Shown here piece by piece: positions 34,005 to 39,643 of a stretch of 46,922 bases of DNA. Each line of letters starts with the position of its first letter. The stretch's first letter is position 1. Under the pieces are notes generated by a model that worked only from the letters and a program-made list of their open reading frames with translations, did no database searches and was not told where the DNA came from. Source of the DNA: Nocardiopsaceae bacterium (GTDB lineage: Bacteria > Actinomycetota > Actinomycetes > Streptosporangiales > Streptosporangiaceae); contig JAFMRC010000004.1 of assembly GCA_017354375.1 (NCBI GenBank), positions 1-46,922 of the forward strand. The letters run 5' to 3'. The translations under genes and the position numbers were made by a program.

Positions 34005-35000
34005 ATGCCGCCCGTTCGAATTTTCGATATTTTTGCGGGTGCAGGCGGTTTGTCTCGTGGCCTGGAGGCCGCGGGGTTCGAGGTGGCCGCAGGCGCCGAG
34101 CTTGACCCTGACGCGTGCGAGACCTTCGCCAAGGCTCATCCCGCGGCCGAGGTCATTTCCGGCGATGTCAACGACCTGCCGTTTCCCGAGTGGAGTTCCC
34201 GAATCGACGTGCTCGTCGGCGGGCCGCCGTGCCAGCCGTGGAGCACCGGCGGCAAGCGCCTTGGCCCGGCGGACCCGCGAGACGGGTGGCCCGCCTTCCT
34301 GAAGGCACTGCGGCAGATCGGGCCGCAGGCGTTCATCGCGGAGAACGTTGCCGGATTCGCGGGCGGGGCACGGGCGTCCCACTTCCACGAGCTGGTCCGC
34401 CAGCTTGAAGACGAGCTCGGGTTCAAGGTCGCGGGAAAGGTGCTTAACGCCGCGGATTACGGGGTGCCGCAACGTCGGCTGCGCTTGTTCATCGTCGGCA
34501 CCAGGACCGGGCGGTTCCGCTTTCCCGAGGCCACTCACGGACCCGAGGCAGGCTCGCCGTGGCGAGCCGCCGGCGAGTTCATCGGGAAGGATCCCGTCGG
34601 TGTGGCCAACTCCTCGATCGTCACCTACGCGCGCCAGCCCGACCTTCGACCCAACCCCTACGACGGGCACGTGTACAACGGCGGCGGCCGCCCCATCGAC
34701 CTGACCAGGCCAGCCCCCACGCTGCTGGCAAGCATGGGCGGTAACAAGACCCCGTGGATCGACACCCACGGGGTAGTCCCGGAGTACCACGCTCACCTCA
34801 TGGCGGGCGGCGCGCCTCGTACCGGGAGGGTCCAAGGCGCGAGGCGCATCACTGTGGAGGAAGCCGCCATCCTCCAGACTTTCCCGCCCGGGACGCACGT
34901 CGCTGGCCGGAGGTCCAGCTGCTACCGGCAGATCGGCAACGCCGTTCCCCCTCTACTCGCCCAAGCGATCGGAACGGAACTGCTCGCCCAGCTCCAGTGA
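34005..35000 (+). CDS. C5-cytosine DNA methyltransferase #2
   Basis: IFDIFAGAGGLSRGLEAAGF, VLVGGPPCQPWSTGGK, IAENVAGF, YGVPQRRLRLFIVG, QIGNAVPPLLAQAI. Confidence 0.94.
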   Translation: MPPVRIFDIFAGAGGLSRGLEAAGFEVAAGAELDPDACETFAKAHPAAEVISGDVNDLPFPEWSSRIDVLVGGPPCQPWSTGGKRLGPADPRDGWPAFLKALRQIGPQAFIAENVAGFAGGARASHFHELVRQLEDELGFKVAGKVLNAADYGVPQRRLRLFIVGTRTGRFRFPEATHGPEAGSPWRAAGEFIGKDPVGVANSSIVTYARQPDLRPNPYDGHVYNGGGRPIDLTRPAPTLLASMGGNKTPWIDTHGVVPEYHAHLMAGGAPRTGRVQGARRITVEEAAILQTFPPGTHVAGRRSSCYRQIGNAVPPLLAQAIGTELLAQLQ

Positions 35001-35050
35001 CAGGGACCCGGCTTACCCATCGGCGGTCACGCCGCAATCACTCAGCAACC

Positions 35051-36061
35051 TCACGTAGGCATCAACGAGCGCGTCGTCCGGCTGCCGCGCGGCCAGAGCG
35101 CGTTGAGCGCCGAACGTCTTCCGGGCCTGGTAAGCCGGTGGACGAGCGAGCGGCATTCGTGCCGGATGTCCAGCACGGAAAGATCGACGTTCGCGGCAAT
35201 GAGCCCGGAAGGCACGCGGGCTCCTTCCACCGCGTCCGCGATCTCGTCGCCCGACGGAGCCGGTCCCGGTGCCACGATGTGGATTCGGGGCAGGTCATGG
35301 TCCCGGAGCACGGCCAGGGCCTGGGCGATCTTGGACTCCCATGGGTTGGCCGTGACCTCGTACGCTTCGGTTACCCGGCCCCCGTCAAGAACCTGCACGT
35401 CAGCCGCCGTACCGGCCGAGGCGTCGGTAGCGTTCAGCGTCTTGGTCTCGACCCGTCGGTGCCCATACTCCTCGGCTTGCGCGTGCAGCATGGCCGCGAA
35501 CACGAACTGCTGGTGAGCCCCTCCGCTGGGGCGGTCGAGCAGGCTGTCCGCAACCCGCACCACGCGCCGGAAGGACAACAGGCTCACATCCAGCGCTGGC
35601 ATGGGCTGAAGGTCACGCGCGGTCGCCGCTATGCGAGAGGCCATGTACCGCATGGCCTGTTCTACGGGTTCGATCGCTCCCTGTTCCAGAGCCCATCCCA
35701 ACAGGCGGTTCCACGAATTCCGGTTCCGCCCCAGGAGTGAATTCGTGCCCTTGGCGAGGGTCTGGAACGCATCCCGCTTGGCCCTGATGTTCAGCTCATC
35801 CATCAGTCCGGCGAATCTTTGTGCCACGGTCCGCCGCCCGCTTGGAGGCTTGGCAACGCCAGCCACCGAACCCGCGTCAACGGCGTAGGCGAGAACGATC
35901 AGCGCCGCATCTCGATAGGTGTCGGCCTTGGACAGCAGGTCATCCAGCCAAGGCCGCGCCCCTTCCGGTGCGTCCGGCTCTGGCGTGACCGTTCCGTCGG
36001 CTAGTCCCCTCATCATCACGTCGAGCATCGCCGACACCTCAACAGCCCCCATGCCGCCCAA
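35051..36061 (-). CDS. Putative restriction endonuclease partner of MTase #2 (convergent)
   Basis: 50-nt gap to convergent MTase; DVQVLDGGRVTEAYEVTANPWESKIAQAL resembles a nuclease-like D...ExE core; family not identified. Confidence 0.5.
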   Translation of the reverse strand: MGGMGAVEVSAMLDVMMRGLADGTVTPEPDAPEGARPWLDDLLSKADTYRDAALIVLAYAVDAGSVAGVAKPPSGRRTVAQRFAGLMDELNIRAKRDAFQTLAKGTNSLLGRNRNSWNRLLGWALEQGAIEPVEQAMRYMASRIAATARDLQPMPALDVSLLSFRRVVRVADSLLDRPSGGAHQQFVFAAMLHAQAEEYGHRRVETKTLNATDASAGTAADVQVLDGGRVTEAYEVTANPWESKIAQALAVLRDHDLPRIHIVAPGPAPSGDEIADAVEGARVPSGLIAANVDLSVLDIRHECRSLVHRLTRPGRRSALNALWPRGSRTTRSLMPT

Positions 36062-36204
36062 AGGTATCGGATCTTTCTTTTCCGGCGCGCGGAATTAGGT
36101 CCCAATTTCGCGCCCTCGTGACGCCCGCCCCTGCACCTCTGCAACATGCGGCTCGAATGTCGTATCCCGGCGCTAGCCTGATGGGCATCTCGTAGGAGGG
36201 GCGC

Positions 36205-36291
36205 ATGGGGTTGGACTGGCGAGAATCGACGACACGTCCGCCGCAAACGGCGAGATGCCTGCTTCGCGGTCACCGGCATGGGAATCTTTAG
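36205..36291 (+). CDS. 28-codon leader ORF upstream of MTase #3
   Basis: TAGGAGG RBS, ATG at 36205; MGLDWRESTTRPPQTARCLLRGHRHGNL*; stop 2 nt before MTase ATG at 36294. Confidence 0.4.
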   Translation: MGLDWRESTTRPPQTARCLLRGHRHGNL

Positions 36292-36293
36292 GT

Positions 36294-37511
36294 ATGAGCC
36301 GACTGACTGCCGTCGACCTGTTCAGCGGGGCGGGGGGTGCCTCGCTGGGGCTGATCGATGCCGGCTTCGATCTCCGCCTCGCTGCCGACTTCAACCCCGC
36401 ATGCGGCCTCACCCACGCCGCCAACCTTCCGGGCGAGTTCATCGTCGGCGACCTGCGCGAGGTCGACGCGGACAAGGTCTCCAACACGGCGGACATCGCC
36501 CCGGGCGAACTTGACCTGCTGTTCGCGGGTCCTCCGTGTCAGGGGTTCTCGATCATCGGCTCCCGCGTCGTGTGGGACGAGCGGAACAACCTGTTCCGCG
36601 AAGTGCTCAGGCTCACGCGGGACCTCCGCCCGCGCAGTGTCGTCATCGAGAACGTTCCCGGCCTGGTCACGCTCGCCGGCGGCGCGTACCTACGGGCCAT
36701 ACTCCAGGGACTCGCCGAAATCGGCTATGAGGCAGCATGCGCTGAGCTGCTTGCGGCCCAGTACGGGGCTCCCCAGATGCGATGGCGGCTGATTATCATC
36801 GCATGGCGCCATGACACGGGCATTCCCCCGGGTTTCGGGTTCCCCGCGCCGGTGCCGGGCTGTGGCAGCATCGGCGATCTGCTTCCGAACTGCACGATCA
36901 CCGCCGCGGAGACCAGTGGTTTCGTGACGACCCGCGAGGCGATCGGCGACCTTCCCCCGGTCGCGCCCGGCGAGGAGGTAAGCAGCTACACCGGGAGCCC
37001 GTCGTGTGACTACCAGCGCGAGATGCGCGCGGGGCTGACCGGCGACCTGGCCAACTTCCTGGCCAACCATTACGCAGCCAGGCTGTCCGAGGCGAACCTG
37101 GCGCGGCTGAGGTTGCTCAGGCCCGGCCAGGACTGGCGCGACCTGCCCAGCGACCTGCTGCCGACGGGAATGCGGCGGGCTCTCCGCAAAGATCACACCC
37201 GCCGCTACCGCCGGATGACGTGGGACGGTGTCCCCCGTTCGGTGATCACGCGGTTCCGGGATCCGAAGTCCGGCGAGTACACCCACCCAGAGCAGGACCG
37301 CACCATCAGCATCCGGGAAGCCGCCAGACTGCAGGGTTTCCCCGATCGTTTCGTGTTCCACGGCGACAGATCCTGCCAGTACGAGCAGGTCGGCAACGCT
37401 GTCCCAGCCCAGCTTGCCCGCGCGATCTCCGCAGAGATCACCAGGTGCCTTGCGGGAAACCCCGGGGCGACCGCCTGTTGGATCCGTTCCGTCGCCGCCC
37501 CGTCGCCATGA
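36294..37511 (+). CDS. C5-cytosine DNA methyltransferase #3
   Basis: AVDLFSGAGGASLGLIDAGF, LLFAGPPCQGFSIIG, VIENVPGLV, YGAPQMRWRLIIIAW, QVGNAVPAQLARAI. Listed ORF starts at 36255. Confidence 0.94.
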   Translation: MSRLTAVDLFSGAGGASLGLIDAGFDLRLAADFNPACGLTHAANLPGEFIVGDLREVDADKVSNTADIAPGELDLLFAGPPCQGFSIIGSRVVWDERNNLFREVLRLTRDLRPRSVVIENVPGLVTLAGGAYLRAILQGLAEIGYEAACAELLAAQYGAPQMRWRLIIIAWRHDTGIPPGFGFPAPVPGCGSIGDLLPNCTITAAETSGFVTTREAIGDLPPVAPGEEVSSYTGSPSCDYQREMRAGLTGDLANFLANHYAARLSEANLARLRLLRPGQDWRDLPSDLLPTGMRRALRKDHTRRYRRMTWDGVPRSVITRFRDPKSGEYTHPEQDRTISIREAARLQGFPDRFVFHGDRSCQYEQVGNAVPAQLARAISAEITRCLAGNPGATACWIRSVAAPSP

Positions 37512-38021: not shown

Positions 38022-38387
38022 TCAGCTTATGTTGAGGTCGCCGTGCACGTCGCGGAGCTGGATGACCTTGTCCGCCTTGCCGTGGAAGACGTTGGAGACG
38101 GCGTCGTCGGTGGCGGACGGCGCCGCCTGCAGCCATAGGGTACTGACCTGGTCGCGGAAGCCGGGGTCGGCCTCGAACTCGCGCTCAAGGATTTCCGCCA
38201 GCGGCTCCACGACGGGCTCCCCGCGGGCCGCCGCGTCCAGGATCTCGACGTCGGCGGGGCGCTTGCGGAGTTTCTCCCGGATCTTGCCGGTGATCGCCGA
38301 GACGGCCTGCCGGGCCTGCTCGGTCACGGCCTCGGCGGCCTTGCCCGCGACGGCGCTCGCGACGGCCATGGTGAGGGGATCCGTCAT
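38022..38387 (-). CDS. Small helical protein with C-terminal RHIM/BASS-like amyloid motif
   Basis: 121 aa; C-terminus NVFHGKADKVIQLRDVHGDLNIS. Confidence 0.65.
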   Translation of the reverse strand: MTDPLTMAVASAVAGKAAEAVTEQARQAVSAITGKIREKLRKRPADVEILDAAARGEPVVEPLAEILEREFEADPGFRDQVSTLWLQAAPSATDDAVSNVFHGKADKVIQLRDVHGDLNIS

Positions 38388-38389
38388 TC

Positions 38390-39643
38390 TCACCCCCCGT
38401 TGTTGTGGTGTCCCGAAGCCACGATGAGGAGGATGGTCACTACGATGGCGGCCACGAGGGTGATGGCGCCGACCACGATCCCGCCGATCGCCAGGCCCCT
38501 GCCGCCCTCGCCACGCTCCCTGATCTGGCGCAGCGCCACGGAACCGAGGATCACCGCCGCGATCGACCCGAGTCCCCAGAAGCAGACGATGCCGCAGATA
38601 AGCGATGCGATCGCCATGGTGTTCGTCGGCGCCGTGCTGAAGCCAGGGCCGTACGGCTGCTGGTAGCCGCCGGGCTGCGGGCCGGGCGGTCCGTAGGGCT
38701 GGGGCGGGAACCCTGGTCCGGGTGGCTGGGAGGGATCCGGACCCGGCGGCGGGAAGCCGGGAGCCCCGAAGGCTCCAGGAGCTCCGAAGGCTCCGGGAGG
38801 CGGGGGCTGCGAGTAGTCCTGGCCAGGCGGCGGCGGGAACCCGGGTCCCCCTGGGCCGCCGGGAGCTCCGGGAACCTCGGGGCCGCCTGGGGGGCCGAAA
38901 CCAGGGGCCGGAGGCTGGAAGTCGGACGAGGGCGGCATGCCGAACCCCGGCGGAGGCTGTGGCCCGGATCCCCCCGGCGCACCTTGGAAGGCGGATGGCG
39001 GCGGACCCCAAGGGCCAGGCTGCGGGCCCCCGGGGCCAGGCTGCGGGAAATCGCCCTGGCCAACCGGCGGAATCCCCTGAACGGTCGTGGGCGTATCCTG
39101 CGGCGCCCGCGGCCCCGTCCCAGACTCGGGCCCGGTCCCAGATCCGGACCCGGTCCCGGATCCAGGAGAATCCTGACCCGGCGAGGACGCATCCTTGCCA
39201 AACGAGGGAATCTGCTGAACACGCGTCGGCATATCGTGCGGCCCCGACCCCGAAGAACCCGGACCCGACGAACCAGGGTCCGGCGAACCCGGTCCCGAGG
39301 AACCCGGACCCGACGAGCCCGGATCCGGCGAACCCGACTCCGACGGCGATGACGCATCCTTGCCAAACGAGGGAATCTGCTGAACACGCGTCGGCATGTC
39401 CTGCGGCCCCGACCCCGAAGAACCCGGACCTGAAGAGCCAGGCTCCGACGAGCCCGGATCCGGCGGCGAGCTCTCCCCTTCGGCTCCCCCAGCACCCTCG
39501 GCCGCCTGCTGCCTTTTCTCAATGGGCAGGCTAAACGACTGGACCCGGGTCACGTCGGGAGCATCGTCATCCGGATCGCCGCCCGTCGCGCCGTTCGCAC
39601 CGTTCGACCACGTCGAACCGTCCGGCCAGGCAGAGTCGCTCAT
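38390..39643 (-). CDS. DUF4190-like membrane protein with long Pro/Gly/Ser-rich N-terminal region
   Basis: C-term TNTMAIASLICGIVCFWGLGSIAAVILGSVALRQIRERGEGGRGLAIGGIVVGAITLVAAIVVTILLIV. Confidence 0.85.
   Translation of the reverse strand: MSDSAWPDGSTWSNGANGATGGDPDDDAPDVTRVQSFSLPIEKRQQAAEGAGGAEGESSPPDPGSSEPGSSGPGSSGSGPQDMPTRVQQIPSFGKDASSPSESGSPDPGSSGPGSSGPGSPDPGSSGPGSSGSGPHDMPTRVQQIPSFGKDASSPGQDSPGSGTGSGSGTGPESGTGPRAPQDTPTTVQGIPPVGQGDFPQPGPGGPQPGPWGPPPSAFQGAPGGSGPQPPPGFGMPPSSDFQPPAPGFGPPGGPEVPGAPGGPGGPGFPPPPGQDYSQPPPPGAFGAPGAFGAPGFPPPGPDPSQPPGPGFPPQPYGPPGPQPGGYQQPYGPGFSTAPTNTMAIASLICGIVCFWGLGSIAAVILGSVALRQIRERGEGGRGLAIGGIVVGAITLVAAIVVTILLIVASGHHNNGG
39186..39442. repeat. ~90-bp near-identical segment duplicated with 165-bp period in the DUF4190-like gene
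   Basis: gacgcatccttgccaaacgagggaatctgctgaacacgcgtcggcat begins at 39186 and again at 39351. Confidence 0.9.

Follow-up and report, generated by a model that had tools for sequence, protein, structure and literature searches.

The window analysed here is a stretch of 46,922 nucleotides from a Nocardiopsaceae bacterium (contig JAFMRC010000004.1), in which a small minus-strand gene lies between a group of restriction-modification genes and the gene of a Pro-rich membrane protein. The genes and features of this locus are as follows.

34005-37511: two C5-methyltransferase genes flanking a restriction-endonuclease-like reading frame, then a small unclassified reading frame
35051-36061, minus strand: type II restriction-endonuclease-like reading frame between the C5-methyltransferase genes
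38022-38387, minus strand: gene of a candidate BASS3-type effector (121 aa, ATG at 38387), from the reading-frame call, homologues and purifying selection
38025-38093, minus strand: C-terminal BASS3/RHIM-like motif, NVFHGKADKVIQLRDVHGDLNIS, matched by profiles built without the window and of low pLDDT in the monomer model
38124-38378, minus strand: predicted helical domain and putative execution domain, residues 4-88, from AlphaFold2 with a 33-row alignment
38325-38378, minus strand: hydrophobic, small-residue-rich segment of the N-terminal helix, residues 4-21, from Kyte-Doolittle hydropathy
38390-39643, minus strand: DUF4190 gene (PF13828, E 3e-17), product Ser/Gly/Pro-rich with a membrane domain at the C-terminus

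The reading frame proposed in the preliminary description was recovered with the same ends, strand and start codon, and the 23 C-terminal residues quoted there are exact. The restriction-modification neighbours that it mentioned, two C5 methyltransferases and the type II restriction-endonuclease-like frame, are present at lower coordinates than the effector gene. Upstream, the DUF4190 gene encodes a protein of 417 aa, and the effector ATG is located 2 bp past its stop codon; the two genes are probably co-translated. The adjacency described for the Pro-rich membrane protein is real, but no DUF4190-type neighbour was seen beside homologues at the relatives' loci examined. The hisS gene is located past the DUF4190 gene, away from the effector. 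The DUF4190 protein contains three to four repeats of D(M/T)PT(R/T)VQ(Q/G)IP, which possibly represent a phospho-threonine/FHA-type site.

Motif conservation and predicted fold

Of 60 related genomes, 18 hold a homologue of the effector, a figure that includes the window's own genome. Homologues also occur at 20 named loci distributed over Actinomadura, Spirillospora, Microtetraspora, Streptosporangium and uncultured Streptosporangiales. Pairwise dN/dS values of about 0.16-0.47 between the window gene and its homologues represent purifying selection, indicating a selected protein rather than a chance reading frame. The motif is conserved in orthologues and sits at or near the C-terminus in all 33 aligned homologues. 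Within this alignment N99, G103 and G116 never vary, Q110, R112 and D113 hardly vary, and mean pairwise identity reaches 0.54 in the motif columns as against 0.31-0.36 for residues 31-96, with 0.49 for the N-terminal helix. The C-terminus of this small protein carries a RHIM-related motif in which N, G, (V/I)Q, D and G are the conserved positions.

The window motif was matched with an E-value of 4.1e-17 by a 15-sequence motif profile drawn from effectors of other species, and with 6.3e-13 by A6, a broader profile made from effectors of other genomes with window rows and receptor rows excluded. A6 was used in place of profile A3, which includes receptor rows and is partly circular. For the pattern scan an 8-row alignment was used, the 20-row one being too diverse. 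Neither Pfam, NCBIfam nor PADLOC searches of the effector returned anything credible; no Pfam family, RHIM included, matched it at E up to 1. Weak Pfam matches of single members (PSCyt2, DUF7740, EAD1 and others) were inconsistent between members and were dropped.

The upstream region, described earlier as helical, was predicted by AlphaFold2 with 33 sequences to form five helices (residues 4-15, 23-42, 44-54, 60-73 and 75-88), forming a small helical bundle, which is one of the features of a Bell domain. The pLDDT is about 90-95 at residues 31-80 and low in the C-terminal tail, as expected if the tail folds only on assembly. A Foldseek comparison of the helical domain with the PDB gave no solved fold below E 2, and PDB sequence matches, mainly to designed helical bundles, were set aside as a composition effect. 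Every member has a hydrophobic first helix, and residues 4-21 of the effector are followed by a net basic stretch. The 19-residue Kyte-Doolittle maximum of this helix is 1.02 in the window protein and 0.83-1.35 across the family, none of the 33 members reaching the usual transmembrane cut-off of 1.6. Membrane insertion of this helix is possible, but as the helix falls below the usual threshold, membrane action is a conjecture.

Matching motifs on NLR-type receptors

A check proposed in the preliminary description was to look in the genome for NB-ARC proteins with a matching motif at the N-terminus. In a search of the entire assembly with A6, the window motif (6.3e-13) was followed by matches on contigs C575 (0.003), C237 (0.013), C415 (0.073) and C523 (0.09), after which there was a gap to E 1. 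A narrower effector profile found the receptors weakly, and it was the broader A6 that gave this ordered result. All four matches lie at the N-termini of NLR-type STAND/TPR reading frames on contigs other than that of the effector, so the motif sought on such proteins does occur in this genome. The individual E-values of 0.003-0.09 are weak, and the C415 and C523 receptors are imperfect. Both NB-ARC and TPR regions are present in the C575 and C237 proteins. The C415 protein has the TPR region and lacks the P-loop region, with no NB-ARC match in Pfam, and the C523 frame, which carries motif and P-loop, ends at 136 aa, some 90 bases short of the contig end. Since NB-ARC frames are few among the genes of this genome (25 matches), four out of four N-terminal NLR matches would not be expected by chance. 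By reading, the spacing from G to V-V-Q is alike short in the window, C523 and C415 motifs. Weaker matches on C442, C275, C353, C555 and C526 were discarded as neither receptors nor effectors. The BASS3-tagged TPR protein on C415 (L080:8523-10706) may be a receptor that has decayed or that serves as a decoy.

No receptor is linked to the effector gene in the 580 contigs of this assembly, which is about 87% complete, so that a nearer partner could be missing. In relatives, receptor-effector pairs do occur together: in 9 of 20 named relatives, a homologue and an NB-ARC/TPR receptor with an N-terminal motif are no more than about 10 kb apart. Among genomes of the window's genus this distance of about 10 kb or less is found in two of seven (G001 and G002), each with homologue and BASS3-receptor on one short contig (G001:C37 and G002:C188). 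Across the 20 loci (L021-L040), A6 detected the 20 effectors and six other reading frames, each with a P-loop about 42-54 residues past the motif; the same order of motif and P-loop was seen by eye at L030, L032 and L040. In the nine linked loci, effector and receptor are often divergent neighbours.

A candidate effector of an amyloid signalosome

By sequence and architecture we file the window protein as a new BASS3 effector, an assignment made with our own motif profiles in place of the published BASS3 HMM. The motif also stands at the start of several immune-receptor-like proteins of the same genome, which makes it very probable that the protein acts as the response arm in a known class of prion-like immune switches of bacteria. 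The best explanation as a whole, which we hold to be likely, is that it serves as the effector in an amyloid signalosome of BASS3 type under NLR control. The motif itself, its conservation, its C-terminal position and the matching receptor N-termini, in this genome and linked elsewhere, are shown by the sequences themselves. At rest, the effector would be soluble, its helices bundled and its C-terminal tail disordered. Upon a trigger, the unlinked NB-ARC/TPR receptors would oligomerise and present their N-terminal motifs as a cluster, which by analogy with templating in published BASS3, fungal and animal systems could seed cross-beta folding of the effector tail. The assembly may then cluster the helical domains, whose effect on the cell would most probably be exerted at the membrane and presumably end in growth arrest or death. 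The amyloid seeding and the direction of the signal are transferred from these published systems, while we infer the triggering of the receptors, the membrane action, the death and the service to several receptors.

Other readings were weighed against this one. The protein could be an adaptor or modulator that bears the motif, such as an amyloid sink or nucleator, with the harm done by another protein; this would suit a helical domain that has no recognisable enzymatic or pore-forming homologue and whose first helix is just moderately hydrophobic. However, in many relatives the protein is the sole motif-bearing small protein beside motif-bearing receptors, and in published BASS pairs (PMC7889193) it is the C-terminally tagged helical protein that is taken as effector; we therefore regard an adaptor as rather unlikely. 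It is improbable that the C-terminal segment represents a conserved non-amyloid binding peptide docking by ordinary beta-augmentation, because its N...G...VQ...D.HG pattern fits the RHIM-related BASS3 family, for which fibrils were reported (PMC7885112), and because a motif shared by both partners favours self-templating over an asymmetric contact of peptide and pocket.

Slightly less probable still is a local two-gene system with the Pro-rich DUF4190 membrane protein, in which the receptors on other contigs would be coincidental: the 2-bp spacing and the likely translational coupling speak for it, but the missing DUF4190-type neighbour at the examined loci of homologues and the recurrence of NLR linkage across different genera speak against it. 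A chance likeness of the C-terminal peptide to the RHIM-like pattern is scarcely credible although the motif is short and tolerant, given the E-value obtained with the profile excluding the window and a motif kept across 33 homologues under purifying selection.

BASS3 with a Bell-domain effector and an NLR is described by Dyrka et al. 2020 (J Mol Biol), which we cite through PMC7889193 and PMC8086366. In these two, PMC7885112 and PMC12261475, BASS motifs are placed at NLR N-termini and Bell-domain protein C-termini, mainly in actinobacteria and cyanobacteria, and BASS3 is related to RHIM and the fungal PP motif, with fibrils reported. The present system resembles BASS3 in that a small helical protein ends in a RHIM-related motif and NB-ARC/TPR receptors carry such a motif at their N-termini, in its filamentous actinobacterial hosts, and in the adjacent gene pairs of several relatives. 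It differs in that no receptor adjoins the effector here, a single effector seems to serve several unlinked receptors, and DUF6879 recurs beside the receptors. Adjacency of effector and receptor genes was the criterion of BASS family discovery and is not needed for function. Compared with the Bell domain, the first helix here lies below the transmembrane threshold; no Bell model appeared among the Pfam or NCBIfam results for the effector, the Bell profile being outside the libraries used.

The HELLP/PNT1 PP-motif signalosome of Podospora (PMC7885112) likewise combines a helical execution domain and C-terminal RHIM-like motif with a switch formed by an NB-ARC/TPR receptor bearing the motif at its N-terminus, but it is fungal, and the likeness drawn here is one of architecture. 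With metazoan RHIM proteins (RIPK1/RIPK3) a related core amyloid motif is shared according to the BASS3 literature; by contrast, the window protein is bacterial, has another domain architecture and does not match the Pfam RHIM family at E up to 1. The protein would add a BASS3 effector family of Streptosporangiales in which receptor and effector peptides are named, making cross-seeding directly testable.

DUF6879 and the number of receptors per effector

In the window's genome, three of four DUF6879 genes lie directly upstream of a BASS3-receptor, the fourth, on C78, being the exception. The three are located as follows.

C523:518-1021 (L078): DUF6879 gene before a BASS3-receptor
C237:15846-16349 (L079): DUF6879 gene before a BASS3-receptor
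C415:13989-14465 (L080): DUF6879 gene before a BASS3-receptor

In two of these three loci a gene of about 90 aa precedes DUF6879. Over 12 genomes, 10 of 59 DUF6879 copies fall within about 1 kb of a BASS3 match, compared with about 0.07 expected for random positions by our own arithmetic, and the association recurs in several relatives beside receptor or effector. No mention of DUF6879 was found in the literature searched.

Motif-bearing effectors were also counted against receptor-sized frames in each genome, a count in which weak receptor motifs can be missed and beside which effectors of other types may exist. In most genomes with this effector a single copy is accompanied by one to several receptors: four in the window's genome (two imperfect), at least four with a P-loop in G014, and two each in G017, G001 and G002. 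The effector stands alone in G008, and three effectors without a detected receptor were counted in the incomplete assembly G007. One effector copy facing one to several receptors suggests a shared hub, and the effector of this genome is apparently common to several receptors, a pattern that is suggestive only. A tentative extension, possible yet doubtful, is a network in which several unlinked NLRs, often with DUF6879 (sometimes the protein of about 90 aa) as third component, signal through RHIM-like motifs to one helical effector; if true, its wiring would resemble that of the helper hubs in NLR networks of plants or fungi. The one-to-many layout and the DUF6879 link lead to testable hypotheses on bacterial NLRs converging on a shared prion-like executioner, a question relevant to how RHIM-based cell death arose. 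Near one of the three G007 effector homologues, a TIR-STAND protein is encoded at L022:11797-14295.
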